In this document: positions 15,401 through 59,880 of the stretch, in pieces
How positions within the stretch are numbered: position 1 is the first letter of the stretch
Layout: each line of letters starts with the position of its first letter
Origin: Owenia fusiformis
Lineage: Eukaryota; Annelida; Polychaeta; Sabellida; Oweniidae
Assembly: GCA_903813345.2 (NCBI GenBank)
Contig: CAIIXF020000008.1
Span: 6,954,366 to 7,018,365 of the forward strand
Length of the DNA: 64,000 nucleotides
Direction of reading: 5' to 3'
Translations under genes and position numbers: made by a program
Notes under the pieces: generated by a model
The model's input: only the letters and a program-made list of their open reading frames with translations
Databases searched by the model: none
Told to the model about the DNA's origin: nothing

Positions 15401-18400
15401 GACCTCTTTTTTCTCAAGTTATCGGCCTTCCTGAGCAGTAACAGCCTGCGTCTAAGAGATTCTCTCAGCCGATGGAGTCCTTCTTTCTCTGAAACGTCAG
15501 CATTTAAGAAAGCTTTCCTCAAACCTCGCAAGTCTTTCCTGATGTTACCTATTTCTTTCTGTCTTCTGCTTGGCCCTTTCTCTTTCGGGATTCCATCCCC
15601 CTTCTCCTCAAGTCCAAACCTGTCCATACATACATCATACACAATAGATGTCATAGCTTCAACTTTCCTCTTAGCGTCCCCCTTCAAAGTATTATTGAGG
15701 ATCTGCTGTAAGTCAGCATCCAAGTCTTTCCATTCAGAACTTGATGCTGCTGGTAGTTTCAGTTTTGGTTTCCTTTCAAAAACTGGTACTTTCACTGCTT
15801 CTTCCTGCTCTCTTGTGTTCACTTCCTCCTCTACGGAGACTACCTGGACACTGTGGTTGTTAACCGGGTCTGGGTTGTCCTGCGTCTGACGAGGGGTATT
15901 CACCTCTCTGCGTTGTGTTGGAGTTGATGAGCACTTCGTTTTACCTTGATGTATTCTTACGCCATGCCAGTTTTTGAAGATTCTTCCGCAACTTTCACAT
16001 GAATCTCGTCGTCCGTTGTCATTGCGTGGGTCCTTGTCCGTTGTGTTCTGCCTATTGGATGAGTCTTCCGCCCCCCCTCTCGGATCATCCTGGGGGTATT
16101 CTCTTGTTTGGTTGTCTGTAGCTGTAAAAGTGGGTGCTTCGGTCATCTGATCAAAGCATGGTTCTTAAGGGTGCTGGCCTTCAGAACCCCCAATGCTGTC
16201 TTTCCAAGCTGTCACAGTTCTATTCTCTGTCGCCATAGGGACTTTCCCCTAGGTCACTGGATAATTCCAGAACTAATGTTGAATTAAACGCTGATGCGCT
16301 GTTACCCCAATTCATTCCTAACTCACGCTGCAGCTTCTGAAAACAATATGCATGAATGGTGCAAGACCGGGTGGATCCGTAAGCGTCTTCTGCTGTTAAC
16401 TCTATACTCTATTGCAAAGCCGCAACATGTGTACATGTATGTAATAATTATATTTTACTTGTGAAATAAATCATGTTTAAATAAAAATAGAATTAAAATG
16501 GCACAATGTTTCTAAAACTAGAATTGAAACAACAAGTATGATTGTACTATCAGTGCTGAAATTATTTAGATAACTTATAGACCTCTATTGTATTTAAATT
16601 AGTATTGTCAAAAATAGTAAATAATATTTTTAGTCAACATTAATAGCCAATTCTTTAAATGAATACATAGCATGGCGTAACAAGATCAAATGTTCAATGC
16701 AAAAATTACTTTTATCTATTTTTCAGATAGATTTTAAATCATATAATTTATTGAGTTTACTTACTGTTTGAGCAGATCCGAGTTGACGGTAAAAAGTCCA
16801 TACATAATGCGCCAAGAATTCTTGTTAATTTTGATTAAATGAAGTTTGTCAGGTCATTCTCAACATTAAAAGTATTGTCATTAACCTAACTAGACTAGAA
16901 GTCAGGCAACTAGAATTTTATTCATTAAGCAGCACCGACTTTTGCCGTAAAAACCTTAATAATTTCACATATATGTAGATGAACAAAGGGCTCAAAAATG
17001 CATGTATGTCTAGATAAATAAAAAGTCACAAAAATGCATGAACATTTATGTTTTCTTATAATATCACAGTCCCAACTCACAAAATAATCAGTTCTCTTTG
17101 CCAAAAATGTATAAAACAACATATATATGTATTATGTTGATTAGTTCTCTATGAATTTCAATGTAGAATTCCTGGATGTAATGATGTGGACAAATATACA
17201 TATTTTTGGATATCTCACAATTTGCCTTGGTTTAAATGAAAGTATGAACCTGGGACCTAGAAAACTATAAAGTAGAGTTGTTTTGTTTTTTATTATTTAT
17301 TTAGTTACATAAAATAGATGTACATGGGGTAATATAGCAAATACAAGAGAGCATACTCAAGTGCTAATCATCATTTTAGCTTATAAGCACTCTAGCCTAG
17401 CGGGGAGCCTAGCTTCCTAGCCTAGAGTCGATTCATTCACTCCCCTATCTTTATGGACTTTACATGTACCCCAAATGTCATTTATGATTACAGGAGCTAG
17501 AAAACTATATACTAGAGTTGATCCCTCCCGTTCCCCATCTTGAATGATGGACTCTATTATGTGTACCCCATATGTTATTTATGATTTCAGGATCTAAAAA
17601 ACTAAATACTAGAGTTGATCCCTCCCCCATCTTGATGGACTTTACATGTACCCCAAATGTCATTTATGATTCTAGGACCTTGAAAACTATATACTAGAGT
17701 TGATCCCGACACTCCCTCAGCTTGATGGACTTGAGAAATCTTTCTACTCCTTCTACGTTTGTACAGCTGTCAGGAAGTTTTTCTTCTTCCTGGACCCACT
17801 AAGGACAGGGAAGGTGAAAATACAAGACATTTTGGCCTGTAGCTTCTTAGATGATTTACTAGAGGTATGAGCCCTTCAGATTTGATGAAACATCCATCTC
17901 ATTAAGTTATTTAATAAAGACTGCTTTGAAGTTTTTTATTCATATTTGTATATTTAGCAACAAAGGACTTCTCCAAATAAAGAAATGGTGTATTGGCCTG
18001 TCCAAAACTACTCCTGCCATCTATATATCCAGTTATATGGACTCAACTGGTTGTTTACTCGATCATTATCTCATCTGACATATAGACATTCTTTGAATAC
18101 ATTACTTTGTAATAGCTGATCAAAGATAGCACATAGAGCATGTTATTTACATAAATATTATACTTTTTTAGTTGCGTGATGAAGACCTGCCTAAAGATGT
18201 TCAGGAAAGTAACTGGTTCTCTGCACCCTCTGCTTTGAGAGTGTACGGCCAGTACCTGAATCTCGACAAAGACCACAATGGTATGCTCAGCAAGGAAGAA
18301 TTAGCCAGGTAGGCATGAAAACTTCAATGAACAGTTAAATCTGTCTGGTAGAACAACCTCCAATATGAAACAGTTTTCAAATGTCCCATAGAGCAATGTG

Positions 18401-21400
18401 ATAGTTATTTTTGTATATTAAGCAAGATCATCTCATTCAAGAACATGTCTACAGGGAACAAATTTTGCCTGTACAAAGTGCATTTAATAGTATTACATGG
18501 GCATTGCTATACCAGGTGCTATACATTCTTTCAGTTATAAAACATTAAAACAATTACCTTGTTATTTTCAAATAGTTATACATAATGGGTTTATAAATAT
18601 AAATATAAATCGCTTTGTCTTTTATTTCATTGCTTTATCAATCCCAGGTAAGAAGTTTTCTAAGGATATGTTTTTATTATCTGATTATCTGTTTGATCAA
18701 ATATCCTAAGCTGTTCCTGTTTAAAATCGTTAAGATATTTCCATAAAATATAAATGAATCGTGAACTTAAAGATGTAATAATATTTTTCTGCTAGCATAA
18801 TATTCAATCAAAATCAGGTGTTTAAAATCAAAGCATCAATCTGCTCTCTAGTGCCTTAGCAGCCTTTAATACAGTTGCATCTTCATAATGGCGCCCTGTG
18901 ATCATGATTCCCACAGGAAGGCCCTCTGGGAAACCACCATTCAGTGAAATAGATGGATGGCCTGTGAGGTTTGCCGCTGTTGTATTTTGTATCATACCAA
19001 ACCCCATCTTGGAGCAGCTCTGAAATGAGTTTATTTCAGATTAAATAGATGAATGAAAATGTGATATTCACTAAACTAGCAATACACATGTATATGTACA
19101 TGTGTATTTGAGGAATATCCCTTTAGGATATTGAAAATAGTAATGGAACATAAATTCCCAATTAATCTAGTGTCTTTACATGAATAATTACAAGGAGCAC
19201 ACGCGTCTCGAACTCGCAACCTCGTGGCTACGGCACCTACTCGCCTAGTTTGAACGTACTGGGGCTGAAGCCCTCTCGGCCAACTCGACAACTCCAAAAA
19301 AAGTTGTTTTGTTAGTCGATTTGAGGCAGCTGATGTTAATGATCGAACACATTATATTTTCCTCTATCCGTCTGTCATTCTGTCTGTCATAATCAGTTTT
19401 ATTGAACTTACCATTTATTTTAAAATCTTTTGTTGGTAGTTTTGGAGCCTTATATGGTAGTGTAGGCATGACAAGTAAGTCATATTTCTCAAATGCTTTG
19501 TTGTACATATCAGTGAAGCTCTTTGCTAAGTCTTGGGCTTTACCAAAGAACCATAGAACCTCTTGTTGTATTCTCCCCAAAGGCATGTGTGCTGCCATGT
19601 AAATGGTAAATCATGTGGCCTACTTTTCACTTTCTTTCTGAAGTGGTCTGTGAGTGAGTTGGGGTAGAATCCTTTACCCATGCTTCCACCTACAAAGTAA
19701 AAATGACAAAAATGAGTCTATATATTCCTAGATTTATTCAGATAAGAATCATAAGGTGAAATTTTAGATTATTTAAATTAAGATCAATTTGTTGTAAATG
19801 TTTACATTCCTTGGATGTATCAGAGCAGTTACTAATTAGATCCTTTGTTTGAGAATTCTGTGATCACAATCAGATCAAATATAGGAGATGATATACCATA
19901 GAACGTCTGTAGGTATCCACCTTCAACACCAACAGCTGTCCATATTGCAGCAGCTGAAATAGAAAAACAAGGAAAGACAACAATTGGTCTTGTTCTTTCA
20001 TATGTTATGGCACATTGAAAATTATTTTCTGATCCGCCCTTACTGTCTTCTCTATATACAATACAGCCTTAGTTCTTTTCATACCACTCGGCAAATCATA
20101 AGAGATATTGATTTATGTCATATTTAGATGTTATTACCATCTTTGTGCATAGGTATGGACACATCTTCTACAGTGGCCCCAGCTTTAAAGAACACCTCAA
20201 TTGTAGCCCTAACAATCTCCTGTACATCGGGTTCACAGTTTTCAAAACCCTCCACAACGAATCCTATCTTTAACCCAGAGATATCTGTGCCCAGCTGAAA
20301 TGATGAATGATTTAAATATTACTGATTAGAATAGATCCCAAAAATATGACGATTGTTTATATTTTATTTGAATCAAATGTTCCATTGTTCCTCATATACA
20401 TATTTCTAAATTCTTTCTGAAGTGCACCATATACAGTAGTTGCTCTCATAATCCTAGAACATGTAACGACAAACTTTAAATCTTACAAGTTTTGAATATT
20501 CTTGAACTGGACGATCAGGTTCTTGTCTTGAATCAAAGCCATCATAACCAGCCAGGACCTCAAGTAACAGAGCACAGTCATCTACAGTCCTGGTCATTGG
20601 GCCAAGGTGGTCTATAGTTGTCAACAAAGAGCAGGAACCACTGTAGGGGACCAACCCAAACGTGGGTTTAAGAGCTACAATACCACACCAGCTGGCTGGG
20701 ATTCTAACAGAACCTCCTTGATCTCCACCTATTGAAAGATCAACTTGACCACTAGCAACCTGTAACACAATGTATATGATATAATATTTACTAGGCCAGT
20801 ACTCAGCAAGAAATTAGTTAAGACACATTTTTTCTGGAAAATGATTCATTCCATTGTGCATGTAGTAAGGAGACCTTTGTGAGCAGGCTAGTAGCCAGGA
20901 TTTGCCAAGGGGGAGTTCAGTTTTCAAAAATTTCCAGGGGGGTTCACATTTGACAATTTTGGCCCAAATATGGCTAAAATTACTTGAGAAGTGCTCAAAA
21001 TGGTGAAAAACTGCATCCCAAACCCTACGAACCCCCCTGACTACGGGCCTGTTAAGGGTTGGGAACTTATCCATATATATGATTGGTAAAGAAGTGGTCA
21101 TTTGAGGATTGATCAAGGAGTGTAATAGGCAAGGGCTATGCAAGGGATATGAGCATTCAGAAGGTATGTATGGAATTGAGCTTTGACCTGAGTTTTGAAT
21201 AAGATTGGCTAAGGATTTAAGTAATTTAAGATAGTAATATGTAGCACAAAAGAATAGTTTAGGTCAATGTCATGAATGCTAAGGAAGGTAAGGTCAGGGC
21301 ATGAGTAGTCAAAGTGCTTGAATCTGATTGTATTCACTATGTCAAAGGATAGGTATCAATATGGTGAACTGAATTCAACAATGTTTTTCTCTTAAGGCGA

Positions 21401-24400
21401 CGCTATATTAAATAAAAAGTACAAAAAATGACTGCCATATTTTTTTGATAAAGACACATGTTTTTAAAATCTGTTTACCTTGTATATGAATTGTGTATCT
21501 TGACTAATGAAACATGTCAAAGTTAACATCACACATAAACGCATTTTTCCAAACTATGAATTGGAGGTGCATGGATCCCCAAAGCTAGCATGAAGAGTGC
21601 GAAGTGAGGCTAATTTTTGAAAGTTTCAAGGAGTAGCCTTGCAACAGTCACACATTTGCAAGAGTCTAAAATTTCCACAAATCATCTTACCTTACCAAGG
21701 AACAACGAAGGAGCACGAAAATGTGTACTTCTTGCATTGTTAGAGTATAATAAAGCTCAAACCATTGTGAATTCTAAATATTTCATGTCCACCATTTTGT
21801 TTCCTGGAACTATTTTTTAGTCCAGAGTTATCTTCATTCATGTTTCCATTGTTTATCATTCATAAAGCCTCTATCATGTATCTATCATGATAATTACACT
21901 GTAATAGATAAAACATACAAGTGATAATCCATGCCACTTGGTGTAGTCACAAAACTTGCATGAGGATTAATCAGGAAGTCTAGAAGTAGTTCCGGCAAAC
22001 AAAATGTGGACATGAAATATTTGGAATTTACAATGGTTTGAGGTTTATTATACTCTAACAATGCAAGAAGTGCACATTTTCATGCTCCTTCGTTGTTCCT
22101 GGGAAAGGTAAGATGATTTGTGGAAATTTTAGACTCTTGCAAATGTGTGACTGTTGCAAGGCTACTCCTTGAAACTTTCAAAAATTAGCCTCACTTCGCA
22201 CTCTTCATGCTAGCTTTGGGGATCCATGCACCTCCAATTCATAGCTTGGAAAAATGCGTTTATGTGTGATGTTAACTTTGACATGTTTCATTAGTCAAGA
22301 TACACAATTCATATACAAGGTAAACAGATTTTAAAAACATGTGTCTTTATCAAAAAAATATGGCAGTCATTTTTTGTACTTTTTATTTAATATAGCGTCG
22401 CCTTAAACCAATTATTGAAAATATTCTGTAAAAATGGTTCTTATGTAATGTTTACTGATTGGCAACAATTTAATGCAAAAATTATTTATATATATTTTAT
22501 TTAGCTGTTTTTGTTAACATTTTTGGTTTTTTATTGCAATTGTTTCTTGTTCCTTTCTACCAATTCTTTAGAATGAAATAAAATGTCTTTCCGAACCTTG
22601 TTGGAACAAAATTACATATACAACATTTTCTTAGACCTCTCATAATTACAGTGATGACCATTCAATTGATGATGTGTAAAATTTTCAGAATGTTTTGATG
22701 ACTGGTTTAAGAGAAACGCATGTTCAAAAAGTTCACCATATCGATACCACTCGTTTCATAAAAAATAACTGTGTGCCACTCACCAAAGCACCAGATCCTG
22801 AGCTGGACCCGCCGGTAGACCTGGTCTCATCAATTGGGTTTGTTATAGGCACTGGACCAGTGGAGCTTGTACCTGACCATGTCAAGTTCTCACATTGAGC
22901 TTTGCCAGTTATTCGCCCACCTTGGAAACATTATATTGTCATATTAGAAGATGTCATCTAGACTGCGGACTATTCTGTAGAAGTGCTCTAGAAATGGATC
23001 TCGCTTTTCATGGAAGGTCACACATTCCAACATATTTCAAACAATTTGTATGATTATAATAGACACTTTCTGGGTAGTTGACTTTATGTAGGGGTGGCAG
23101 AAGGCCCTCAGGCCAATTTATACCCCTACCCCAACAAAACCTTGGGGGTACTTTAATACCACCCAATAAAAATAATACTAATGCATATCAGATATTCATC
23201 GTTTTATAGTGGGTAGGGCATGCCATGGTTAGTCAGTGCCGGAAATTTCCAATCTCTGACTTATATGGTTACCATGGAAACAGTATTTATATCCCACAAT
23301 CTTCTCAATTTGACCCCGTCCCAAATGTGTCCTTAAGTTCTCAAAGTGAAATATTTGCAAATCTGTTTGGATTTTGTGGCTGCAACTTTGTCAAAAGTTG
23401 AATTAATATGTATGTATTCACACTAAAGCACTAAAAACTTGATATAATGATCTCATAAATTAATAATATTTATCAAATGTAGTCACACACAACTGCTTTT
23501 AAGGAAAAGTGGGCGTGGCACTTTTTGGTACTTGTGTAATTGTTGCAGCATTAAATGAAAAATACTTATTACACTAACAACAATTGACATTTAATTAGCA
23601 TCTACTAACATTGTGTAACATTGTAGTATGTTCATTATCATTATTAGATACTTTAAATATTTTATATAAGTGTTATCATGACCCTTCCCTATCATAGGTC
23701 ATTAATGGTCAAATTAACTTTTAAGTCCTAGAGGTCCTTAGTCTTTTTAGCTTGTCAAAGTCGTATTCATTGACTTGAAGCTAGAATATAAATAGTTTCA
23801 TTGATCAAGAGCTATGAGTTAAAATTGATTAATACATTTGTCAGGGTTAGAGCCATTTTATGCAATTGAAAAGTAATGGACCGACACTGATCAGTACCAA
23901 GTGAAGGTAACGGCCGTAACCTTCGCATCTAAGATGGCGGACAGTAATTGTCGATTTTGATATTTTTAATTTTCATTGAATTAAACTACTTTAGAGTTGA
24001 TGTTATGCTTTGACATTTGCACCAAATCAGGCTTAAATGACATTGGAACCATAGATGTAGTAAACATGAATAAACGATATGTGAAATGTTATGCCCTGCC
24101 TTAATACATAACTAAGATTTTCTCGGATAAATGGTGTTTTACAATTGACTAACTGATTCTATTATCAACATCAGGTAATGCATGATCTATCCAATGGATT
24201 AAAGAAAATACTTGATTCCAATATGGCAAAATAAATTATTCCATGTATGAATTGCATAGTGCATCATTTTGCAGATATTACATAATGCATTCATTGACTC
24301 ATGGTCAACAAGGTACGGGTAAAACTCCTTTTAGTATTACACAAAATAATGAAATATAAACAATTTAAACATTTCTGAAATGCTGTACCTTTAGTGATTC

Positions 24401-30400: not shown

Positions 30401-31784
30401 TTTTGTGATTTTTAAAAAATACACATGACAAGGAATGACATGAGCCAAAAATATTCAAAAATTGAAAAAAAAATTTGTTTGGCCTGCTCGCTTTATCTGA
30501 TTCTCTCTTTAATTCTTCATTATTTCAGGAATATATAATCCTATCTTTACTTTGTTGTTCATTATTACAGGACTACAAGACCTACCTTGACTTTGTTCTG
30601 GCTCTTGAGAACAGGAAGGAGCCTCAGTCTCTACAGTATTTATTCAGACTATTGGATGTACAGAACCGTGGATACCTAAATGTCTTTGCCCTTAACTTCT
30701 TCTTTAGGGTAAGAACTCATATAGCATAACTTTTTGTGGACATGGTTGGCAGTGGGCATTCGGTGTCTGCAACAAATGGCAGGTGGTGACATTTTGCATG
30801 TTAATGCCTTGTTTAAATTGATGCTACTATGAAAAAGCACAAAAGGCAAATGTAAAAAATCTACCACTACACAATCCCCTATAAACCATATCAAGTAGAG
30901 CATTTAATTAATATATGAAGCAACAATTACTCCATAATAACCCATAAAATGTAATAAATGACCCAATTTAATAATTTCTAAATAGAATTGAAACCATATT
31001 AAACATTTTGCATTGTAAACATGTACATACTTTATGGTTCTCTTTGTTTAGGCGATACAAGAACAGATGAAGGTACATGGTCAGGAGCCTGTTTCATTTG
31101 AAGATGTGAAAGATGAGATATTTGATATGGTAAAACCTGCTGATCCGCTCAAGATCACACTGCAGGACCTAATAATAAGGTATGTCTTATTGTATAATAT
31201 TTTTCTAAATCAAATTGTATTTTTAGATTATTTAAAACACTTTAAAAATGTTCATGTTACCACCAAAAGTAGTGAAATATTGCTATAGACTCTACTTTTT
31301 TTCTGGACGATGTTTTGTGGTTGATGTTTGGTGGTCGGCATTCAGCATCTGTGGCAGGTGGTGACATTTTGCATATTAATGCCTTGTTATACAAGCTTTC
31401 ATTTGATGTCCAAATCATGTGTCCCAGATATGTAAACAGTATACTATGAATTATCCAAAACCATGATCCAACATGAAAAGAAGCAATGTCTAATACCTTT
31501 CCTTAGTTCTCACACCATTCAAGGTGCATTATCACAATACACAACCATAACGTCAAGGGCAAACACTACAAAATAAATCTCATCATGTTCCAAAGCATGA
31601 AAGTGATGATGTTTAGTTTTCATTGCTCGTTGAGTATTTTTATTTACTAAGATTTTTTTAATCAATTTTCAGTGGCCAGGGTGATACAGTAGTCAGCATC
31701 TTAATAGACCTAAATGGATTCTGGACCTATGAGAACAGGGAAGTTTTGGTAGCAGACACTAGTGATGGTGAAGCTGAAGTCTAG
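486..31784 (+). CDS. PPP2R3C: Protein phosphatase 2A regulatory subunit B'' gamma, multi-exon (5' end probably missing)
   Basis: This is the G5PR-type regulatory subunit that binds PP2A/PP5 phosphatases and carries EF-hand folds. Coding exons read in frame at 486-619, 1021-1070, 1347-1401, 1612-1724, 2032-2200, 17676-17864, 18172-18308, 29787-29862, 30571-30708, 31052-31179 and 31673-31784, each with GT donor and AG acceptor and compatible phases. Recognisable blocks include [50 protein letters not shown] followed by an EF-hand loop ([12 protein letters not shown]), and [12 protein letters not shown] near the C-terminus. The stop is TAG at 31782. An in-frame ATG at 464 could start translation, but TTTATTTCTAG just before 486 looks like an acceptor, so exon 1 is more likely upstream of the window. 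Introns 2201-17675 and 18309-29786 contain antisense genes. No frameshift is seen. Confidence 0.95.
3227..3455. repeat. Dispersed repeat, family copy 1
   Basis: This copy shares most of its length with 33770-33975, including three CACCCACCTGA/CACCCACTTGA boxes and the stretch AATTTTGGTCTGAATTGTGA. The termini are degenerate here. It is likely a small non-autonomous DNA transposon; the better-preserved copy has inverted ends. Confidence 0.7.
3978..5063. mobile_element. Tc1/mariner-type element with 315-bp terminal inverted repeats
   Basis: The ends CGAGGGGTGATTCAAAAG and CTTTTGAATCACCCCTCG are perfect complements, and the inverted arms run 3978-4292 and 4749-5063. TA flanks both ends (3976-3977, 5064-5065), the target duplication of the Tc1/mariner superfamily. 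The 456-bp core holds a fragment of a transposase DNA-binding domain. It is non-autonomous as it stands. It lies in a PPP2R3C intron, about 65 bp from the 3' end of the antisense GPCR gene. Confidence 0.92.
4371..4619 (+). pseudogene. Mariner transposase N-terminal helix-turn-helix remnant
   Basis: A short frame inside the inverted-repeat element reads ...[17 protein letters not shown]... then ...[17 protein letters not shown]. This is the pattern of the mariner N-terminal HTH: a helix with a length-of-life motif, then a recognition helix ending RWYKxFxxG. The DDE catalytic domain is absent, so it cannot transpose by itself. The family assignment rests on motif resemblance plus TA-flanked inverted repeats. 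Confidence 0.6.
5130..6392 (-). CDS. Intronless class A (rhodopsin-like) G-protein-coupled receptor, orphan
   Basis: This 420-residue single-exon protein has seven hydrophobic segments. Class A landmarks are N39 (helix 1), LAVSD with D67 (helix 2), C92 and C168 (expected extracellular disulfide) and W143 (helix 4). Helices 3, 6 and 7 deviate: the DRY position reads DSF (116-118), CWxP reads CYTP (353-356), and NPxxY reads NVFVY (391-395). The third intracellular loop is long, roughly residues 206-335, and rich in polar residues. N-terminal NDT is a possible glycosylation site and there is no signal peptide. The chosen start is the ATG at 6392; a TTG two codons upstream is not credible. The gene lies antisense inside a PPP2R3C intron. 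The ligand is unknown; an invertebrate amine/adenosine-like expansion is possible. Confidence 0.88.
   Translation of the reverse strand: MDSNNNFSRYNDTETQVSDRKIGFILIQIAIGFTIVALNSLVVISIVRYKKLQSISHIFCGHLAVSDIVFGGLLVLRAFLEVFELLDQKTPCLVVLVMVVISGGVTMTGVFLLWIDSFLMTKRALVKEPFSKRTAFLLIILTWIIWILYVCSFLFFLNDDPDEVQVGCLVSNGFINRYHLMGLSIVVFLHLIILITLQCSTFFMLSQHIRHLTRQGLIPSEPKVFHIRIKQNKVSPSNKTLKIIQHCPTENPLDPRPGCSNQFGYMDRQQQQDSRFLTVRNNFDQRGEKHLRYMKSKSDKYAESIEQGIDSLAESAIEIELHPNTYYSYLQWTKRMSRFAKLISLVLLSFIACYTPFFVCLFLYSLHPGRYISGQVNYITSNILVLNSITNVFVYLIKSKDYRKAFKHILTCKKGAVPTG
7350..7799. mobile_element. hAT-type MITE with 8-bp target duplication
   Basis: The termini TAGTGTTGTCGCGAT and ATCGCGACAACACTA are exact inverted repeats. 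The 8 bp GCGATTAC occurs immediately outside both ends (7342-7349 and 7800-7807), the hallmark of hAT transposition. Subterminal zones are dense in ATCGATG/CATCGCG palindromes, which may be transposase binding sites. No coding capacity is seen. It is nested inside the older Tc1/mariner element. Confidence 0.92.
8115..8315 (-). pseudogene. Tc1/mariner transposase fragment (third catalytic Asp region)
   Basis: The minus-strand frame contains [17 protein letters not shown], resembling the W-P-x-S/T-x-D-x-N-P-x-D-Y-x-W block at the last catalytic aspartate of mariner-type DDE transposases. The rest of the enzyme is missing. It lies inside the TA-flanked element 6972-8693. Confidence 0.65.
9545..9765. 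repeat. Dispersed GGATC(T/C)GG repeat, degraded copy
   Basis: It shares an opening GGATCTGGAA..CCAACAAGGG, GCGCGGAAAAA and several GGCCC-containing stretches with the better-defined copy at 29394-29661. The termini are eroded here. Confidence 0.55.
10655..10800. repeat. Compound palindrome built from a TTGGCCAAGG/AATATCATATT motif
   Basis: The motif ATATCATATT followed by (T/G)GACCAAGG or its complement recurs five to six times in alternating orientation. The whole block can fold back on itself. It is probably a small MITE or a locally rearranged palindrome. Confidence 0.7.
12550..12675. repeat. 126-bp direct repeat, left copy
   Basis: It is identical base for base to 16277-16402 and more GC-rich than the surrounding intron. 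It lies at the 3' end of the retrotransposon in element orientation. Confidence 0.95.
12757..16146 (-). CDS. Retrotransposon polyprotein: C2HC finger, reverse transcriptase, CCHC knuckle, PD-(D/E)XK endonuclease; one internal TAG
   Basis: The first segment (303 residues from ATG at 16146) has a zinc finger with C50, C53, H66 and C72, then a long basic, coiled-coil-like region. It ends at TAG (15235-15237), and the same frame continues uninterrupted to TAG at 12757, so the protein is broken by a single stop codon. The second segment shows reverse-transcriptase motifs [13 protein letters not shown] (motif A Asp), GIMAGCSVS (motif B) and FMDD (motif C), followed by a C-x2-C-x8-H-x4-C knuckle starting CSLCK. 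The C-terminal endonuclease has RPDIVI and VELTVPWE, the PD..E motif of R2-type enzymes. Apart from the TAG all catalytic residues look intact. The protein would nick target DNA and prime reverse transcription there. Confidence 0.9.
16277..16402. repeat. 126-bp direct repeat, right copy
   Basis: It is identical to 12550-12675. It lies at the 5' end of the retrotransposon in element orientation, about 130 bp upstream of its ATG. Confidence 0.95.
17246..17702 (+). repeat. Tandem copies of the PPP2R3C exon acceptor and exon start
   Basis: Degenerate 85-97-bp units precede the authentic exon at 17676. Each contains an ATTTATGATT(T/A/C)..AG acceptor, then a copy of the exon start (GAxCT(A/T)(G/A)AAAAC..ATACTAGAGTTGATCCC) and a CTTGATGGACTT block that also belongs to the exon. 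Pseudo-acceptors fall at 17493 and 17590; a partial older copy is at 17246-17280. The first full copy still reads [17 protein letters not shown] before a stop; the second has an early TAA. The authentic exon is the last copy. Confidence 0.9.
18621..18626 (-). promoter_or_regulatory. Possible poly(A) signal of the amidase gene
   Basis: AATAAA on the minus strand, about 200 nt past the amidase stop codon. Confidence 0.4.
18828..28895 (-). CDS. Amidase-signature hydrolase, nested in a PPP2R3C intron; frameshift in exon 8
   Basis: This is a GatA/FAAH-superfamily amidase, which hydrolyses an amide bond with a Lys-cisSer-Ser triad. Exons read at 28778-28895, 28160-28286, 27714-27886, 22784-22920, 20487-20759, 20138-20294, 19897-19953, 19412-19689 and 18828-19019, with matching phases up to exon 8. 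Visible residues are the Lys in KTIAIKDS, the Ser-rich loop [10 protein letters not shown] and the nucleophile Ser in [13 protein letters not shown]. The C-terminal exon has [20 protein letters not shown]. Within exon 8 the frame changes near 19600: RPHDLPFT reads in one frame and [11 protein letters not shown] in another, as if one base were missing. The phase between exon 8 and the last exon also does not match, so a short exon is probably unrecognised. The gene could be real with a sequence error, or a recent pseudogene. The substrate is unknown. Confidence 0.85.
19195..19293 (-). repeat. tRNA-like sequence, probably a SINE head
   Basis: The minus strand has an A-box-like TGGCCGAGAGG (19272-19282) and a B-box-like GTTCGAGAC (19205-19213) at tRNA spacing, with partially complementary GGAG/CTCC ends. 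The anticodon arm does not fold convincingly, so a tRNA-derived SINE or pseudogene is likelier than a working tRNA. It lies in an amidase intron. Confidence 0.55.
20880..21055. repeat. Short inverted-repeat element
   Basis: The ends GCAGGCTAGTAGCCAGG and CTGACTACGGGCCTG are imperfect inverted repeats enclosing complementary GGGGGGTTC/GAACCCCCC-type tracts. It is consistent with a small MITE inside an amidase intron. Confidence 0.5.
21396..22402. mobile_element. Foldback element flanked by TTAA, arms of about 440 bp
   Basis: Outer ends GGCGACGCTATATT and AATATAGCGTCGCC are perfect complements, and the inverted identity continues inward for roughly 440 bp with few mismatches. TTAA occurs at both borders (21392-21395 and 22403-22406), the target duplication of piggyBac-type elements. 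There is no transposase. The element lies in the amidase intron between exons 4 and 5. Confidence 0.88.
22961..27457. mobile_element. Giant foldback element, about 4.5 kb with 720-bp inverted arms
   Basis: The left arm (22961 to about 23690) and right arm (about 26745 to 27457) are inverted copies. The ends GACTGCGGACTA and TAGTCCACAGTC are both bordered by TA. The 3-kb interior is AT-rich with no recognisable protein. The arms include conserved GGTTACCATGGAAACAGTAT and GGGCGTGGCACTTTTTGG blocks. It occupies most of an amidase intron. It may be a non-autonomous transposon or a rearranged inverted duplication. Confidence 0.82.
25526..25603. repeat. Near-perfect 27-bp stem hairpin with 24-nt loop
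   Basis: The arms CTTTCAATGATTTTTGCAA.. and ..TTGCAAAAATCATTGAAAG differ at one position. It lies inside the giant foldback element. It resembles a pre-miRNA in size, but a transposon palindrome is likelier. Confidence 0.7.
28463..28520. repeat. Pogo/Tigger-like terminal fragment
   Basis: CAGTGAAACCTGTTAAGTGG matches the style of Tigger/pogo element ends. No opposing end was found nearby. It is an amidase intron insertion. Confidence 0.4.
29394..29661. mobile_element. Small MITE with CAGTGGCGGATC ends
   Basis: The ends CAGTGGCGGATCCAG and CCAGATCCACCACTG are imperfect inverted repeats enclosing about 240 bp rich in GGCCCA/TGGGCC words. A degraded relative is at 9545-9765. There is no coding capacity. 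It lies in the PPP2R3C intron upstream of the 29787 exon. Confidence 0.72.
30728..30816. repeat. Short dispersed repeat, copy A
   Basis: It shares GGCAGGTGGTGACATTTTGC, TTTTTGTGGAC and AATGCCTTGTT with copies at 31297-31387 and 53040-53110. Confidence 0.6.
31297..31387. repeat. Short dispersed repeat, copy B
   Basis: This is the same family as 30728-30816, in the next PPP2R3C intron. It shares GGCAGGTGGTGACATTTTGC followed by ATTAATGCCTTGTT. Confidence 0.6.
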
Positions 31785-32150: not shown

Positions 32151-32272
32151 AGTAAAGAATGATTATATCATAAATATTGATAGACTCCTGACAGCGGGAA
32201 AGTCTCATGGAAAAAGCACAAATGTAATTGATATGGAATCAGATGTCTGGAATATTGAAGACAATGATCAGT

Positions 32273-49300: not shown

Positions 49301-50075
49301 ATACTGTAGAAATACTAGGGGTCTAATGGGGTGAAAATTTTCGGTTCGGTTTGTGACTCCCTGAAATAATAGATAAAGCTATGGTATGTTTGGTGGCAAT
49401 TTTGAATTTCTTGTTATAAAGTGCAATAATCCATTGGTTTAATCATTTGGTTATTCATAATGTAATTTTTTCAACTTCTTTATTTTGCATCAAATCCCCC
49501 AAACAAGAGTTGACATAAAAAATAATGAGTGTTACCAGTGTATCTCAATTGAAATGAGATGTCATGGTTTATCGTGATGGTGTAAGCAATATTTGACTAA
49601 AATAATAATGAGTGTTACCAGTATATCTCAATTGAAATGAGATTTCATGGTTTTTCTTTAAATGATAAGCTTTTTATGAATGAACTGATACTGCCTTGTT
49701 CCTGTTTTATATTAATAATTTTACTGGGTGATCTTTCAGTAAGTATAACCTGTACTTGGTAAAATGTTTTAATTTTTTTATTATAATCATAATAATAATC
49801 AATATTTGTATCAAGAAAATGTAACTTTTAAAACACCAAATATACAGTTCAGTTGTTGGTTTTCAAAAATTCTATTTATACTATATTTGTTAATTGTTTT
49901 TGTATATTTTTCAATAACTTTTGTATTTATGTTCTATTTTCATTAAACCCAAAACTTATAATTGAGTTTATTCTATGAACATTTCTGGTCAATCAGCATA
50001 TGTTATTAGTTAACATTTACATTATAACCATAACTTCTATTCTGATATCATGTAACTTTAGAATAATAAGCTCAG
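49301..50075. other. Intergenic, no gene recognised
   Basis: AT-rich spacer. Two neighbouring stretches near 49525-49650 repeat ATAATGAGTGTTACCAGT followed by ATCTCAATTGAAATGAGAT, a local duplication. Confidence 0.55.
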
Positions 50076-50440
50076 ATACAGGCCTCCTAGGCTTCCATCA
50101 ACAAACATCATTTCTGACCTCGCGAACTACGTTCCTTGCACTCGAACCACGTTTCTCACATCACAAATGTGAAATCTTAAGTCGGGCACCACCATTTCCT
50201 CGCTCCCGAACATATTTCTCCACTCGTGAATGGAGATCCGTGCTGGGGAACCACAATGTGCAAGTGGTTTGTAAGCACGGATCTCTGTGCACGAGTGGAG
50301 AAATATGTTCGGGAGCGAGGAAATGGTGGTGCGTGACTAATGATTTCACGTTCGTGATGTGAGAATCGTGGTTCGAGAGCAAGGGATGTAGCTCGCGAGA
50401 TCAGAACTGATGTTCTCGTTGGTGGAAGTCTAGGACGCCT
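50076..50440. mobile_element. Palindromic GC-rich MITE
   Basis: Long inverted arms include TTTCCTCGCTCCCGAACATA and its complement TATGTTCGGGAGCGAGGAAA, with ends GGCCTCCTAGGCTTCC and GGAAGTCTAGGACGCC. A fragment of the same family is at 56810-56880. The apparent frames on both strands are a by-product of the palindrome. Confidence 0.85.
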
Positions 50441-53039
50441 GAGATAACCATAGATGGGATTCGATAAAAAAAGATTTTGAGATGTTTCTAGTTTAACCTG
50501 CACATATAATTTAATATAGTTTAATGTGCATTTAATATTATCATCGTCACTTGCAACTGACAAAATTACTTTCCAATATCAGCATTACAAATTTCTTTGA
50601 ATTTTTGAATGCTAATGTGAAAAAATCAAATTTTTTATGAAGGAAAAATGAGTTATACGTATAGTTGGCACATCTGCTATGTTGCTTAAATACCGATTTA
50701 TTGATTACAGGGTTGGCTTATTATGTTTTATTTACTTTTTATTCTTTTAAATTTTATGTATGTATACACTTCATAATTGATTGATACTATTTTCAGTCTA
50801 CATGACATTTATCCTTAAATATTTGGTTGATTTTATTATACATGTAGATAACTTTTTTATCAAACATAAATATTTAACACATATGATTTTATAATTCATT
50901 TAACTATTTAAAATTGCAAATGATGTAAGTTTGATACCGGGTTGTTTCATATATATGCATCCCCTCTAAACTCACCCTATCATTTTATATATCATTTTGT
51001 TCGTCATATAGAGTTACCTAAGATTGCAAAGTTTCGGAACCCATGAGTGTCCATGAACAGTGTATCGAAGTATGTGGGTACGGGTCATCAAGGCAGGAAT
51101 TTATGCTCGTTTTGAGGGTAATTTAGTTTCTGTATGGCAAATTTCTAGCGAATGGCATCATGGCAGAGTTCAGTCCACATGTCTGTGACAGTTATGCACA
51201 GAGATACATAGACAGGATCCATGCAGTGGCTTATGGGTGGGCCAGGGACCATGCAACCACCTTTATTACAAAAAATGGGTTGCAAACAAAGTGAACAGAT
51301 CACCAAACAAGGTCAAAAAATGCTTACAAACGACCCTGTACCCGCATACTTTGATACATTACACACATCTTTTTTCAGGGACACCCCTTGATTCTGAAAC
51401 TGTGCCACTTTTCATGAGGAACAAAATGATATATAACATGAAAAGATGGCAATGCAACATGTATGAGTTTACATATACAACACCTTGTATTATACTATTT
51501 CTACTATATTATACTATTTAACACCATTAATAATGCATACATATTTTTCATTATTTTTCCCACATATTTTTCCCTTTATGTTTGAAAATGCCAAAGACAT
51601 GAAAAACTGGTTGTTTGTATTAAGTGTGCAATCTTACATGTACTAAATCGCTCAAGCTCCACAGTTCATTCATTTGAAACATTATATACATTAAAATGTA
51701 CATTCTATTTGCAATTGGTGGTAGTTACTAGTACAGGAAGAAGGATAAACTATTTTCTCTAAAGGTATTTACTATTAACACTCCTCTCCAAAAATTTGGC
51801 AGCGCAGACTGTTTAGGACAGCAAGTCTGTCATAGTGGTAAGCCAAATATATGGGGGGAGTGTACCATACATAACAATGTTTAGAAGTCTTCCAACAAGT
51901 CTTTGGAACTTCCCGTTCACCAACTTTAACCTTAAAGTCCCCGATAAATCGGGCTACGTATACCGCCGTGTTTACATTAGGGGATTAGAAGAGTTTATTT
52001 TTTATTTAGGTATGCAAGCTACGTATATCAATATTAGGCCTTCATTCATGTACTCGTGTGCATGTAATCAGCATGCCCTTCAATATTATGTAAACCAGGC
52101 TATTCAAGTACTGTATAATGTACACTATTTATGTGTGTACTACATACAATACAATTCCCTTGGAAACAAAACACAAATACTTTTTATATGTTCAAAATGA
52201 GCCATTTGATTGATGCAAACACTAAATAGCTTCATAAATGACATCTACAAAGTATATCTAATAGTAATTTTCAATTTCAATGGTGAAACTTCCCTGGTTA
52301 CGATTATATGGGAAATCATCACGAGACGAATATCGTTCGCTTCCTGGCTTACCTCTGAATCATGTACCTGGTAATCTCTTTATATAGTTTAGCGAGAGCG
52401 GTGCGCCTGCGCAGTTTTAAACTTTGGCGCACACTTTAAGGGTGAGGTGTATGGTCACAGCGTTGATACAAGACTAACAATTGGGCACCAAATAAACCAA
52501 CAAACTATTTCTTTCTGGTGGAGGATATACATTTATTTATGTATGTTGACCTTATATTGTACAACTTCGTACATAAGTAAACTGTATATTTTGTTTACAC
52601 ATACATATATATGTTAGAGTTGAAACAGCAATGAAATTTAGCTGTATTTTAAATGTACAATGCAAAACTTGTCGGAGGACATTTTATACTGGTATATTTA
52701 TACATTTTTATCCTCATATGTCATATATCTTATGCCAATAAAGATTTACACTTGAAATAAAGATTGCACCAGAACCAACAAAGCTTGTTTGTTTTTCACC
52801 CCCCCCCCCACTCCCATTACAGATGGTCTTAAAGGATTGACTGTGTCTTGGGTTGTGTTCCAATGGAACAATCTTAAATAGGCAATTTGAATACATGGAT
52901 TCAAAGTTACTTACAATCTGATGAGTTATTGTCAACGATAAACATTTGAACTGGTTGCCAATTAAATTAATTATGAGGTACCCCAGGGCTCCATTCTGGA
53001 ACTGATCCTTTTTATGTCACCACATATTATTATAGTCTC
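50441..53039. other. Intergenic, no gene recognised
   Basis: AT-rich sequence between SGPP and ZRANB3. Frames of up to about 120 codons (for example 51835-52200) show no motif or codon signal that I would trust. Confidence 0.55.
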
Positions 53040-53110
53040 CAACTTTTTGTGGACGGTGTTCAGCATCTGTAACAAATGGCAGGTTGTGACATTTTGCTAG
53101 TGCCTTGTCT
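53040..53110. repeat. Short dispersed repeat, copy C
   Basis: It shares TTTTTGTGGACGGTGTTCAGC and AAATGGCAGGT(T/G)GTGACATTTTGC-type sequence with 30728-30816 and 31297-31387. Confidence 0.55.
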
Positions 53111-53897
53111 TTATTTCAATAATTATTTTGTTGGCCATGCAGAGTATCTATACTGATGATTCATTTGTTTTTGAAGTATTTAAAGGCTGATAGAACTTCA
53201 GACTGACATACATATAAAAAAATTGAGTTAGCTGAATGAACTATTTATAATATCCAAGTACAGTTGTACAACACATCAAGAAGCTTCGTTTTTAACAATA
53301 CATTGTTAGATCATAAAACACTGCTGGTAGAATACTGTCTTGCAAGTTTGAATCCTTGCACGCAGTGACCTCTATATTATATCTCATTATTATATTATAT
53401 CTAACTTCATTAGGTATTTTTTGAGTAGTTTTCTGTGCTAGTAGATGCGTACATCAGAGCATGTGCATGTATATACTTCCATCCATCTCTACTCCCATGT
53501 AATCTCATAGAAGGTGAAAAGATGGCAGTCATTTTGAAAATGATCACTAAATGTGAAAATTCAAAGGCTCATTATTTGTTTGATATCAATACTGTTTTAC
53601 ATGGAGCCAAATGTACAATCAAATGTCAGATTTGACCTTTTCATGGATCTCCCTACTGTTGTTATACAATAACATAATAATAATTTTTCCACAAATATAT
53701 TTCAATATGTATTTTTTTAAAGCATGCAACACCAACTAATTTTTGGACCAGAAGATCTGCATCAATAAATTTGATCAACCTTTTCCATGGCAACCAACAC
53801 ACAGTTAGAAGGCTGTTAGCTAGCCCTACTCATTGCCATAGACAATGTTTTGGTGCATTTCATTGTAAAACTGACTCCCGACAATACTTCATCATCC

Positions 53898-54186
53898 AAC
53901 TGGTACGTGCTCTATTTTGTAATGGAGGCAACTGGTACATGCTCTATCTTGTAATTGAGGCAACTGGTACATGCTCTATTTTGTAATTGAGGCAACTGGT
54001 ACATGCTCTATTTTTAATGAAGGCAACTGGTACATGCTTTATTTTGTAATGAAGGCAACTGGTACATGCTCTATTTTGTAATAAAGGCAACTGGTACATG
54101 CTCTATTTTGTAATTGAGGCAACTGGTACATGCTCTATTTTGTAATGGAGGCAACTGGTACATGCTCTATTTTGTAATGGAGGCAA
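53898..54186 (+). repeat. 32-bp minisatellite, about nine copies
   Basis: The unit GGCAACTGGTACATGCTCTA plus TTTTGTAAT(T/G)GA repeats with single-base variants; one copy has a short deletion. It lies between the convergent 3' ends of SGPP and ZRANB3, less than 200 bp from the ZRANB3 stop. Confidence 0.93.
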
Positions 54187-54329
54187 ACACTTTTAAAATT
54201 GGAACCCTGGAAAAGAAGTCTAATGACTATTATTATATTGCTGTTGGCCCAATTTTTGCCTTACTTAAGTTATTAAATTTGCCTCTACTATTTTAAGACC
54301 AAATTACTACAGCTCTGCATGAACTCTGT

Positions 54330-54335
54330 TTTATT
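54330..54335 (-). promoter_or_regulatory. ZRANB3 poly(A) signal
   Basis: AATAAA on the minus strand about 20 nt after the TAA stop. This would be an unusually short 3' UTR. Confidence 0.5.
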
Positions 54336-54355
54336 CTGCACACTACAATCCAAAG

Positions 54356-57300
54356 TTAACTTTGATTTGAAAATGATTTGAAAAATGTTGTAATATGTTT
54401 AGTGTTTCTAGCAGCCTTTGTTTTAGATCTATTCTTCAATTGTTCTGAGGTGACACGCTTGTGGCAGACTGTACAGAGAGTGCGTAGATTGGTCAAATCA
54501 GCCCAGCCTCCTCCCTCCATCACTGGCACTATATGGTCAACCTGGTAGAACTGCAAAAGAGAGATTATGACTGATAATAAAGACCCAAATAAATAGGCTT
54601 AACAGAGCCTTGTTTGGTCAACTCTATGGGGATATGGGCATCTGGCATAATTATTGAGATCTGTTTATTTTTTATCATAATGAAGCCAATCTTTTAATGA
54701 CTACTGGCAAAATGATAATTTGAAGAGGGTAAGAGGGGCAAATCATCACTTGTCACTCTCAATAATTTGAGGGCTTAATGGATCTTGTATTAGGATGCTA
54801 TTAATAGACATACAAATGACTGAAAATAGCATTTTTGCTGCTTTTGCAAACATTTAACAATTGTCACTTGACATACATGGTACTGACACTGAAATATCCT
54901 GTATGACTTTAGGATACAACTCAGGCTTAAGAATGTATCACTCTGCATAACTTGGATCATTCCTCACAAGACTTTTCTAATCCTTTCTTACCTTGCCTTT
55001 TATCTGTGGTCTTTTGATCATTGCCTGCTTCTCACTAACACTCAGTACTTTATATATGCTTGAGTCTATTGTGGTAGCCCGCTCCTTCAGACTGGCACTG
55101 TCGCTACAACAGGCATGGTGACAATTATGTCAACGAGAATATTACTATATTTGGTTTTGGTTGCCATAGACTTTTTGCAAAATTATTATCTCATTTAGAG
55201 TATTTATGCAGTATCTATTTTGGGGAGGGTAACTACACAGGGGCATTATCACATAAGAAAATTGAAAAAAGTACATTTCAAAGTGTGTAGAGAATGGTCC
55301 TCTCATTAGCATTACATCGAAGAATTCAAATCTGATTTGTTCCAATGTTTATCTGTATCTGTAAAACACCCACCTTAGTGTAAGTCTGAGATGTTCACAG
55401 TCAAACTTGCACATCTGACAGACCCCTCTCTCTGCCTGGAACACTTCCTTCACAGCATACTCTCTGCTAGTCTTCATCTACAAACACAGAAATACAGGTT
55501 CTTTGGTAATTTTTACAATAAGCATGTGGTTTTGTTCATGATTCACTCAGTCCTTTCATAAACAGGTCACAAAAAAAACAGGCTATTGGTTTTGCTGAAT
55601 CATATTGATTTCATCTTAAAAAGGTTATTCAATTAGAATTTTCAAATTGTATATATTGCACTTGCAGTTATTGATGGTTGGTTGGTAGGTTTAAAACTCT
55701 AAAGATGCCATTAGTTAAAATTTTTCATATCATTTTTAACAGATGTTCTCTTTGCTAGGGATTATCTACAGAAGGAGTGTAATCATGACAGGTACATAGA
55801 AAGTAACATAAAGCAGTGATCACATAGAGGTGTTCATCAAGAGAAGTATTCAAATAAGAAGTGTTCACCTAGCAGTGTTACCAGTACTTACAAATGAGGC
55901 CTCAGCACAATCCCTGGAGCAGAATCTAAGGTCCCAGGCATTCTTACTGTTCTGTAGTGTGCTTTTCTTCAATAGTGGGTTGTTCACTGGCTTGTTACAT
56001 TCCATACAAATTGGAATAGCATCAGTGGTCAGGGCCTAAAAGAAAATTTTGTTATATTCCATACATATAGGAATAGCATCAGTGGTTAGGGCCTAAAAGA
56101 AAGTGTTTGTTATATTTCATCAAATAGGAATAGCATCAGTGGTCAGGGCCTAAAAGAAAGTGTTTGTTATATTCCATACATATAGGAATAGCATCAGTTG
56201 TCAGGGCCTAAAAGAAAGTGTTTGTTATAATTCATTCATATAGGAATAACATCAGTGGTTAAGTGTTTGTTATATTCCATACATACAGGAATAGCATCAG
56301 TGGTCAGGGCCTAAAAGAAAGTGTGTGTTACATTTCATACATACAGGAATAGCATCAGTGGTCAGGGCCTAAAAGAAAGTGTTTGTTAATATCCCATACA
56401 TATAGGAATAGCATCAGTGGTCAGGGCCTAAAAGAAATTGTTTGTTACATTCCATACAAATTGGAATAGCATCAGTAGTCAGGGCCCAAAAGAAAGTATT
56501 TGTTACATTCCATACAAATTGGAATAGCATCAGTGGTCAGGGCCTAAAAGAAAGTGTTTGTTAATATCCCATACATATAGGAATAGCATCAGTGGTCAGG
56601 GCCTAAAAGAAATTGTTTGTTATATTCCATACATATAGGAATAGCAACAGTGGTTAGGGCCTAAAAGAAAGTATTTGTTATAATCCATACATATAGGAAT
56701 AGCATCAGTGGTCAGGGCCTAAAAGAAAGTGTTTGTTACATTTCATACATACAGGAATAGCATCAGGTTTTTAAAAGAAATTCCCAGGTTAAGGGTCTGG
56801 AAGGATTACAGGACTCCTAGACTTCCCCTAACACGATCATCATTTCCGACCTTGCAAACCACTGTTCTCATATACATGGAGTTAACCTTAATCTCACATC
56901 AATTAATAAATTGGATGAACTTTTGTGCTGAACCTACCTGTAAGTAACCCTTAGTAAGTCCATCTGCAGGTCTAGGTAGGTCACTGGAGGTGTTAGATAT
57001 CCCATCAGCACTGGAGTTCCTCAGATCATTTATAATAGTCCTGGGAGTAAGACACTTAGCTTCGTTTCCACTGGCAGATACACTAGGAGTAGTACTGGTT
57101 TCCTTTCCAGTTTGATTGTGTTCTGGTTGTTTGGTTTTGATTGTGGAGAATGTATTCTCAGGGCTTTGCCTATTGCTTGCAGTAAAGCTCTGCCGTGGAG
57201 GATCACTGTCAGGGTTACTCAAGGTGCAATTCTTGGTCTTCTTTTGTTTTGATTTTGATGGAGGTTTAGCAATAATACGAACTGAACCATTTTGTTCTTC

Positions 57301-58514
57301 TGCTGTTTTCCAAGCTGTAACTGCAACATTGGCCTGGAATGGAGTAAGAGAAAAAATGATGATTGGTGAAATGTTAAACATATTTTACCTTTATTACTCA
57401 TTTCAAAAACTTGATCAGATGTTGATAGATGATTCCCTATATTTATTGGATTCAGCATTAAAAATGTGTGAAGAGTTTGATTCCACCTGATCTGAGTTTT
57501 ATTTTAATTGTACCATATGACAGGGACAAGAAGTGGTTGTTACAGACAAAAGTTCACCATGTAGCATGAGGATTACAGGTGATATGTATAACAATTTAAG
57601 AAAAAATAATTTTGGTCACCTTGGTCCTATATCGTTGAAAGGTTGACTTAGCCTTCTGTTTTATTTCTTCAGTGAAGAGGCAAGGGTTGGTGAACAATTC
57701 TCCACTTTTTATAATCCTCCTTTGATACACTTTGGACAGACTGAAATGTCATATGTAAAAATTAGGTCAAATCTGGGTGCAAATAGTATAAAACAAATAA
57801 ACTGAAGATGTACATATTCCAAATCTAGCACAATTTCACTATTTTCTCAATACAAGTCAGTCATTTAAGTTGATTGAACATAAAACATGTACACATATTT
57901 ATTTATTGAACCAGATTTAAACAGATAAAAAGCATTAATATTTAATGTGTTGGATTCATTTGGCGCTTGTTTTATTAAAAAGTGCCAAACTAACCAAGTC
58001 ACACTAATATTTATAACAACATGACATTTCGATGATATAGGTTTCTTCTACAGGAGTTTCGATATCATCTTCATGAGGTCATTTCAAAAAAAAAATTTTC
58101 AATTCAATATCAATTCCACACTCACAGGATAAAAATGGCTATGAATTCTCAGACATTCATCATTTGAATTTTCAAACACGTCATGAATATGATATTAATT
58201 CTTCATTACTTCATATGATGTGATGATATGATACTTCAGTGATGCTTTGACTTGCAAAACATAAGTAACAAATACATGGATATGATTGGCTGATAATGCT
58301 ACAAGGCTGCTCATGTGTTTATGTATTTATATTTGATTTGAAATAAAGTCTATGAATAAAAATGCTTTGTTCAAGTCTTGTACCTATTCCAGAGGCGGGC
58401 AAACCTCTGCACTATCATGAGATTCCTTGGATGGAGTAGTACATCAGGAAGTCCATCCAGGTTACCAGATTCAACATCTAACACAGTGAAGTTACTCTCT
58501 AAAGATGTTCCTTC
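54356..58514 (-). CDS. ZRANB3: ZRANB3, C-terminal part with HNH endonuclease
   Basis: ZRANB3 is an annealing helicase and structure-specific nuclease that remodels stalled replication forks. Seven in-phase exons (58384-58514, 57620-57740, 56938-57333, 55892-56035, 55374-55477, 54992-55103, 54356-54550) encode 400 residues of the C-terminal half. They include the substrate-recognition region (SNFTVLDVES..LPDVLLHP, RRIIKSGELFTNP), KGYLQALTTDAIP with a Cys-rich cluster (CMECNKP..FCSRDCAE), GVCQMC, and the HNH nuclease VDHIVPVMEGGG..LTNLRTLCTVCHK. The 396-bp exon encodes a long Ser/Thr/Lys-rich linker. The helicase core, PIP box and NZF finger are not found in the window. Two exons (58514 and 56035 starts) are preceded by tandem copies of their own acceptors. 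Confidence 0.93.
56036..56768 (-). repeat. 58-bp tandem array copied from a ZRANB3 acceptor and exon start, about 13 copies
   Basis: On the minus strand each unit reads CACTTTCTTTTAG then GCCCTGACCACTGATGCTAT and onward to TGTATGGAAT(A/G)TAACAAA. That is a pyrimidine tract, an AG acceptor and about 44 nt of the exon that starts at 56035. Copies near 56450 and 56510 share the exon's ACAAATTGG variant, while most carry ACATATAGG. The authentic exon is the 3'-most unit. The 58-nt period is not a multiple of three. Confidence 0.93.
56810..56880. repeat. Fragment of the 50076-50440 MITE family
   Basis: GGACTCCTAGACTTCC followed by ATCATTTCCGACCTTGC matches the left arm of the palindromic element at 50 kb. 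It lies just outside the 58-bp array. Confidence 0.6.
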
Positions 58515-59880
58515 CTTAAAGCAAAAGAGGGGTTTTGTGAATTAATTCATAATTGCAAAAGTCAAACTGTGTATTGAACACAGGGAAGTTACTTTTTAGA
58601 GATGTTCCTTCCTTAAAGCAAAAGAGGGATTTTGTGAATTAATTCATAATTGCATAAGTCAAACTATTCATCTAACACAGGGAAGTTACTCTCTAAAGAT
58701 GTTTCTTCCTTAAAGCAAAAGAGGGATTTTGTGAGTTAATTCATAATTGCATAAGTCAAACTATTCATCTAACACAGGGAAGTTACTCTTTAGAGATGTT
58801 CCTTCCTTAAAGCAAAAGAGGGATTTTGTGAATTAATTCATAATTGCATAAGTCAAACTATTCATCTAACACAGGGAAGTTACTCTCTAAAGATGTTTCT
58901 TCCTTAAAGCAAAAGAGGGATTTTGTGAGTTAATTCATAATTGCATAAGTCAAACTATTCATCTAACACAGGGAAGTTACTCTCTAAAGATGTTCCTTCC
59001 TTAAAGCAAAAAATGGATTTTCTGAATTAATTCATAATTGCATAAGTCAAACTATTCATCTAACACAGGGAAGTTACTCTCTAAAGATGTTTCTTCCTTA
59101 AAGCAAAAGAGGGATTTTGTGAATTAATTCATAATTGAATAAGTCAAACTATTCATCTAACACAGGGAAGTTACTCTCTAAAGATGTTTCTTCCTTAAAG
59201 CAAAAGAGGGATTTTGTGAATTAATTCATAATTGCATAAGTCAAACTATTCATCTAACACAGGGAAGTTACTCTTTAGAGATGTTCCTTCCTTAAAGCAA
59301 AAGAGGGATTTTGTGAATTAATTCATAATTACATAAGTCAAATTATTCATCTAACACAGGGAAGTTACTCTCTAAAGATGTTTCTTCCTTAAAGCAAAAG
59401 AGGGTTTTGTGAATTAATTCATAATTGCATAAGTCAAACTGTTCATCTAACACAGGGAAGTTACTCTCTAAAGATGTTTCTTCCTTAAAGCAAAAGAGGG
59501 ATTTTGTGAATTAATTCATAATTGAATAAGTCAAACTATTCATCTAACACAGGGAAGTTACTCTCTAAAGATGTTTCTTCCTTAAAGCAAAAGAGGGATT
59601 TTGTGAATTAATTCATAATTGCATAAGTCAAACTATTCATCTAACACAGGGAAGTTACTCTTTAGAGATGTTCCTTCCTTAAAGCAAAAGAGGGATTTTG
59701 TGAATTAATTCATAATTACATAAGTCAAACTATTCATCTAACACAGGGAAGTTACTCTCTAAAGATGTTTCTTCCTTAAAGCAAAAGAGGGTTTTGTGAA
59801 TTAATTCATAATTGCATAAGTCAAACTGTTCATCTAACACAGGGAAGTTACTCTTTAGAGATGTTCCTTCCTAAATAACA
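58480..59880 (-). repeat. 97-bp tandem array copied from a ZRANB3 acceptor and exon start, about 14 copies plus the exon
   Basis: On the minus strand each unit contains CTCTTTTGCTTTAAG followed by GAAG(G/A)AACATCTTTAGAGAG and TAACTTCCCTGTGTTAGATG. That is the acceptor and first 40 nt of the exon starting at 58514, then about 45 nt of intron sequence. Variant patterns show a four-unit block (about 59070-59450) duplicated as 59460-59840, marked by GAATAAGTC, TTACATAAGTC and a shortened GAGGGTTTTG. The authentic exon is again the 3'-most unit. Confidence 0.95.

Follow-up and report, generated by a model that had tools for sequence, protein, structure and literature searches.

Probable mirage-type tandem arrays at splice acceptors and donors in the annelid Owenia fusiformis

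The window, i.e., the whole stretch of 64,000 nucleotides of O. fusiformis DNA that was analyzed, carries exons of a PP2A B''-family gene at 17676 and 30571, which we take to be PPP2R3C, and of ZRANB3 (Table 1). The PPP2R3C-like pieces match PP2A B'' subunits with an E value of 2.2e-23; the ZRANB3 pieces match PDB entry 5mkw, which is named ZRANB3, with an E value of 5.5e-17. When the window was searched with TRF, nine tandem arrays with a period of at least 25 were found, four of which span a splice acceptor. The other five, at 10426, 26376, 32273, 44946, and 53897, coincide with no recognised splice site in gene models that are partial. Between the PPP2R3C-like exons, a long minus-strand ORF (12757-15234) appears reverse-transcriptase-like by eye, and near-identical short translations at both ends of this region (12502-12726 and 16220-16408) suggest repeated flanks.

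Table 1. Acceptor-spanning arrays and the exons they adjoin in the window (positions are those of the window).
Feature	Position	Strand	Basis and remarks
Outlying degenerate copy of the 17676 exon start	17246..17280	+	AG lost; ~422 nt upstream of the native acceptor
Acceptor-spanning array	17440..17707	+	TRF, 3.0 copies, spacing 85-97 bp; native unit is the last
PPP2R3C-like coding exon	17676..17864	+	Similarity to PP2A B'' subunits
Acceptor-spanning array, PPP2R3C-like exon	30516..30597	+	TRF, 42 bp x 2.0
PPP2R3C-like coding exon	30571..30708	+	Similarity to PP2A B'' subunits
ZRANB3 coding exon	55892..56035	-	Native last unit of the 58-bp array covers exon nt 1-44
Acceptor-spanning array, ZRANB3	55992..56766	-	TRF, 58 bp x 13.6; unit of 14 nt intron + 44 nt exon
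ZRANB3 coding exon	58384..58514	-	Native last unit of the 97-bp array covers exon nt 1-40
Acceptor-spanning array, ZRANB3	58475..59908	-	TRF, 97 bp x 14.8; unit of 57 nt intron + 40 nt exon

A preliminary description of the window had listed three acceptor-spanning arrays, at 17676, 56035, and 58514, and TRF recovered all of them with the polarity claimed. Each includes the acceptor together with some 30-50 nt from the start of the coding exon. The list was nevertheless incomplete, since a fourth array, at 30571, had been overlooked. It is the weakest of the four (score 29, compared with a null maximum of 26 in 2,846 comparisons), and this score is below the threshold of 44 applied in the genome sample described below. 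At 17676, TRF and alignment place the extra copies at distances of 85 and 182 nt upstream of the native site; the outlying degenerate copy, irrespective of its lost AG, is identical to the native sequence at 29 of 34 aligned positions. The extra copies in the window lie on the intron side, as had been stated, and the units differ between arrays, in agreement with the claim that they arose in independent events.

The genome sampled was a 498-Mb assembly, of which 477 Mb are in 12 chromosome-size contigs. Three matches to Eryth_link_C, an annelid family, score over the cut-off of that family; together with the number of large contigs, compared with 19 chromosomes in the B. lanceolatum assembly (PMC11907188), they make a lancelet origin unlikely. 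A search for COX1, intended for reading the mitochondrial code, gave no match, and a GFP search was empty in this genome and in the controls alike, so that it carries no weight. Exons were located by matches to four Pfam profiles, namely those of myosin head (92 matches), TCP1 (60), dynein AAA_6 (88), and kinesin (144). From these 384 matches, 303 were selected manually and under no fixed written criterion. Among the discarded matches are clustered repeat hits, genes with a single exon, one short contig, and matches that lie at the edge of a profile or contain many stops, as well as most of the repeated kinesin hits that are members of a single array (L051). Of the 303, 302 exons were placed in 160 stretches (239,439 bases), with splice sites set by the profile match and by iterated weight matrices, without transcripts, which resulted in 289 acceptors and 279 donors, i.e., 568 junctions. 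The median length is 310 nt for introns (n = 137) and 167 nt for exons whose two splice sites were both placed. Each junction was represented by a 55-nt query, which was aligned to the 400 nt flanking it on each side; a copy was counted when it scored at least 44 and matched at least 8 nt on both sides of the junction, a rule that places the acceptor of L065, where the array reaches only 4 nt into the exon, outside the count of junction copies. Two groups of profile matches elsewhere in the genome are also repetitive: twelve consecutive matches to the same myosin-head stretch (profile ~18-84; G000:C9:37986009-37994334), perhaps alternative exons of one gene, and three to the same dynein AAA_6 stretch (profile ~56-164; G000:C9:7082562, 7083728, and 7087077).

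Copies spanning the junction were present upstream at 17/289 acceptors and downstream at 9/279 donors. The two rates do not differ significantly (Fisher p = 0.16). At the same threshold, the cross-locus null yielded 1/5742 for acceptors (upstream) and 0/5528 for donors (downstream), and none at a score of 50. The absence of donor arrays noted in the preliminary description holds among the recognised sites of the window and fails in the sampled genome. Arrays documented with their sequence are L113, L130, L057, and L048 at donors and L112, L056, and L116 at acceptors. L113 (G000:C8:26515606) and L130 (G000:C6:40706160) are kinesin donor arrays, apparently at the same exon (MND.SSRSH motif), with units of 67 and 57 bp, respectively; because the units differ at one homologous site, these are probably independent events. 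In L112, the first 47 nt of the upstream copy are identical to the native exon and then ~8/45 sites differ, which suggests patchy conversion.

Copies on the opposite side of the junction were almost confined to special cases. At scores of at least 44 they were found at 2/289 acceptors (L005 and L051) and at 0/279 donors; in both cases, we take the exon to be a surplus profile hit on an upstream copy within an array, and such hits remain among the 289 acceptors. At scores of at least 34, the acceptor of L066, for which the splice model is weak, has its better copy downstream (41 vs 33 upstream). Exon middles have nearby copies upstream in 6/291 and downstream in 3/291 cases, for which arrays reaching far into the exon could account. 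The array with the most copies among the junction-spanning arrays of the sampled loci is L051 (G000:C2:23266345-23269188), in which a kinesin exon edge is present in ~18 copies with a period of 159 bp and 97% match, and in which the protein profile matches successive copies. The copies lie on the intron side because no more than one of them can run on into the remainder of the exon. The native copy is thus last at acceptors and first at donors, and therefore no directional mechanism is needed. That the true exon is the last unit of the array remains a correct description of acceptors, but it is not a directional signal, as the polarity follows from geometry and is mirrored at donors. The proposal that copies are tolerated only upstream of an acceptor fails as well, given that 9/279 donors have copies downstream.

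The arrays are probably minisatellites of the mirage type, that is, ordinary tandem duplications that happen to straddle splice junctions, that are tolerated when the extra copies are intronic, and whose native site would be chosen by position. Such an array would begin with a tandem duplication that has one breakpoint in the exon and its second in the adjoining intron, which places the junction within the unit. Unequal exchange or slippage would then multiply and homogenize the copies. Only those duplications would survive in which one unit still runs on into the remaining exon, leaving the copies upstream of acceptors and downstream of donors. Finally, the native site would be used as the one nearest to the other splice site of the exon (exon definition), and not as the stronger one. 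The plain alternative offered in the preliminary description, random birth of minisatellites with selection keeping one functional copy, fits most of these data.

Uniform birth does not, however, explain the number of arrays at junctions. In the 160 loci, TRF reported 52 arrays with a period of at least 25, of which 14 were at acceptors, 8 at donors, and 29 in introns, one covered a whole exon, and none (0/52) lay wholly inside an exon; the array covering a whole exon is L051, where the exon is itself an extra hit in the 18-copy array. Under uniform tolerated placement, 9.25 of 51 arrays were expected at junctions, and 22 were found (p = 1.1e-5). For periods of at least 50, 20/29 spanned a junction, compared with 7.57 expected (p = 8e-7). 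There was no excess at periods of 25-49 (2/22 vs 1.68 expected). In this placement test, L051 was counted as a junction array and L066 was dropped because of its weak splice model, and L045 was scored as intronic despite reaching ~9 nt into the exon. A first version of the null had given 7.53 expected for 23/52 (period at least 25) and 6.14 expected for 20/29 (period at least 50). Some of the arrays scored as intronic may be at unannotated exons.

Such an excess would be expected if both types of junction were hotspots of tandem duplication through a DNA mark of exon edges, be it a step in base composition, a nucleosome edge, or transcription-linked breaks, with survival as described above. 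This extension is tentative, and we incline somewhat against it. In its favor, the array density of random DNA (40 stretches of 1.5 kb with 15 arrays in 60 kb, 9 of them with a period of at least 50) predicts ~7 junction arrays with a period of at least 50 at 568 junctions, compared with the 20 seen, and the units of junction arrays are a little more alike (median match 95 vs 90, p = 0.027). On the other hand, the excess is absent at the shorter periods, and near-exon introns contain fewer arrays per kb than random DNA (29 in ~185 kb, 9 with a period of at least 50), so that the choice of background matters. The coverage of single bases by duplications also shows no peak at the junction relative to the intron interior, irrespective of the junction type: 18/289 at the acceptor and 22/286, 19/278, and 7/185 at 70, 100, and 130 nt into the intron; 9/279 at the donor and 9/275, 9/266, and 7/197 at the same distances. 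Because arrays extend far into introns, this coverage is uninformative about a preference for junctions, and event counts were used instead. Finally, the sample consists of hand-picked matches from four gene families. Minisatellites are abundant in this genome; within the random stretches (L161-L200), 47 and 52 of 360 55-nt samples (13-14%) are repeated no more than 250 nt away on one side. Thus, the junction excess is supported in this sample and is not confined to acceptors, and a bias linked to junctions of either kind is possible.

Among mirage-type arrays, the question arises as to how good the splice signals of the copies are. The AG was intact in 80/83 acceptor copies (28 of the 83 from the window), compared with 0.897 expected from the identity at other sites, and the GT was intact in 24/26 donor copies, compared with 0.904. 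By weight-matrix score, 34 of 82 acceptor copies were stronger than the native site, 16 equal, and 32 weaker; for the 26 donor copies, the corresponding numbers were 6, 16, and 4. Copies within one array are not independent, which applies to all of these copy counts. The splice signals of the copies are as good as the native ones. The predicted outcome of using the 78 intact copies of the sample was a stop for 59 of them, a frameshift for 8, and an open frame for 11. As the outcome is mostly a stop or a frameshift, correct site choice should matter. The sizes of introns and exons given above make exon definition plausible, and the native site is presumably chosen by its position relative to the other splice site of the exon and not by its strength. 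A window free of AG at the native acceptor was considered as a survival condition and rejected: its median length was 36 nt for 21 array acceptors (one of which, 30571, was indexed two bases off), compared with 37 nt, the fifth decile, for 259 others (p = 0.79). It is very unlikely that selection maintains the copies as alternative splice sites for a longer form of the exon. Nearly all of them have an intact dinucleotide and scores that match the native ones, and 11/78 would give an open in-frame extension; the intactness of the dinucleotides is, however, close to what the overall identity of the copies predicts, and use of the remaining 67/78 would lead to a stop or a frameshift.

With regard to the origin of the unit, the position of the junction within it is compatible with a uniform distribution (KS p = 0.34, n = 25, excluding L051 and L066; the four window cases are included with manually entered values, and a single value was set to the ceiling of 1). 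This argues against copying anchored on the lariat or the AG, and a unit placed at a fixed distance from the AG or the branch region was not observed. These findings would fit replication slippage, or a duplication mediated by microhomology, with subsequent unequal exchange. Re-duplication of acceptor regions by a mechanism specific to them, such as copying linked to the lariat or branch point, or R-loops, which the preliminary description had considered, is thus highly improbable. The window, with four arrays at acceptors and none at recognised donors, and the sample, with 17 vs 9, lean toward acceptors. This difference is not significant, as stated above, and the mirror-image arrays at donors lead to the rejection of an acceptor-only mechanism. 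That the arrays are artefacts of assembly, whether through the collapse or expansion of repeats or through the tandem joining of haplotypes, is scarcely credible: tandem arrays are classic sites of misassembly, and a single assembly was used here, but the 26 junction arrays are spread over ten chromosome-size contigs and all four gene families, the match within TRF junction arrays ranges from 77 to 100% with many copies diverged, and the arrays end inside exons in the stretches inspected.

Mirage-type duplication leaves room for a stronger claim. Junctions of both kinds might be genuine hotspots for the birth or retention of long-unit duplications, at ~2-3x the level of uniform placement and with an array at ~1 in 20 exon edges, and the spliceosome might pick the native site among up to ~15 near-identical copies by position alone. 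At present, this combination seems to us possible and somewhat more doubtful than not. If hotspot and position-only choice were both true, the arrays would be natural experiments on exon definition. For gene annotation they are a complication, as exemplified by the single kinesin exon edge, whose ~18 copies are repeatedly matched by the protein profile.

The phenomenon is already known from amphioxus, where tandem repeats that cross exon/intron boundaries, whether 5' or 3', have been described as "mirages" (PMC3087553), and where RT-PCR was reported to suggest that regular splicing is undisturbed by them (PMC3087553, PMC3902484). Amphioxus genes with mirages are Adh3, troponin C, the globins BflGb6 and BflGb9, and PGBD5. 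By the features examined, the arrays of the window and of the genome belong with mirages: the unit spans the exon/intron boundary, many copies keep the AG or GT, and arrays are present at both 5' and 3' boundaries in the genome sample, the window having them at recognised acceptors only. Further features listed for mirages are haplotype length polymorphism and somatic instability; the present data are from one assembly. Should mirage-type arrays prove frequent outside lancelets, they would provide many natural tests of the choice between near-identical sites that differ mainly in position, as well as raw material for new splice sites and introns. Other systems share single aspects. Intron gain in potato RdRp (PMC4974935) has tandem genomic duplication as the event in common, but a new intron is reported there, whereas the duplicated junctions described here adjoin existing introns. 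Human variable internal tandem repeats at exon-intron boundaries (PMC2812944) are likewise minisatellites at gene boundaries; reportedly, these repeats change splicing and give rise to new introns within recent segmental duplicates, whereas the exons considered here are those of conserved genes. For an earthworm metallothionein, intronic minisatellites and duplications of exon 4 that are absent from the transcript have been reported (PMC12783039). Among open-licence papers, judged by title or the start of the abstract, none was found on junction-spanning arrays in annelids or on their genome-wide rate. What is added here to the mirages of amphioxus is a rate in another genome, measured on 568 junctions, together with donor arrays, copies with splice signals of native strength, and an excess of long-period arrays at junctions.
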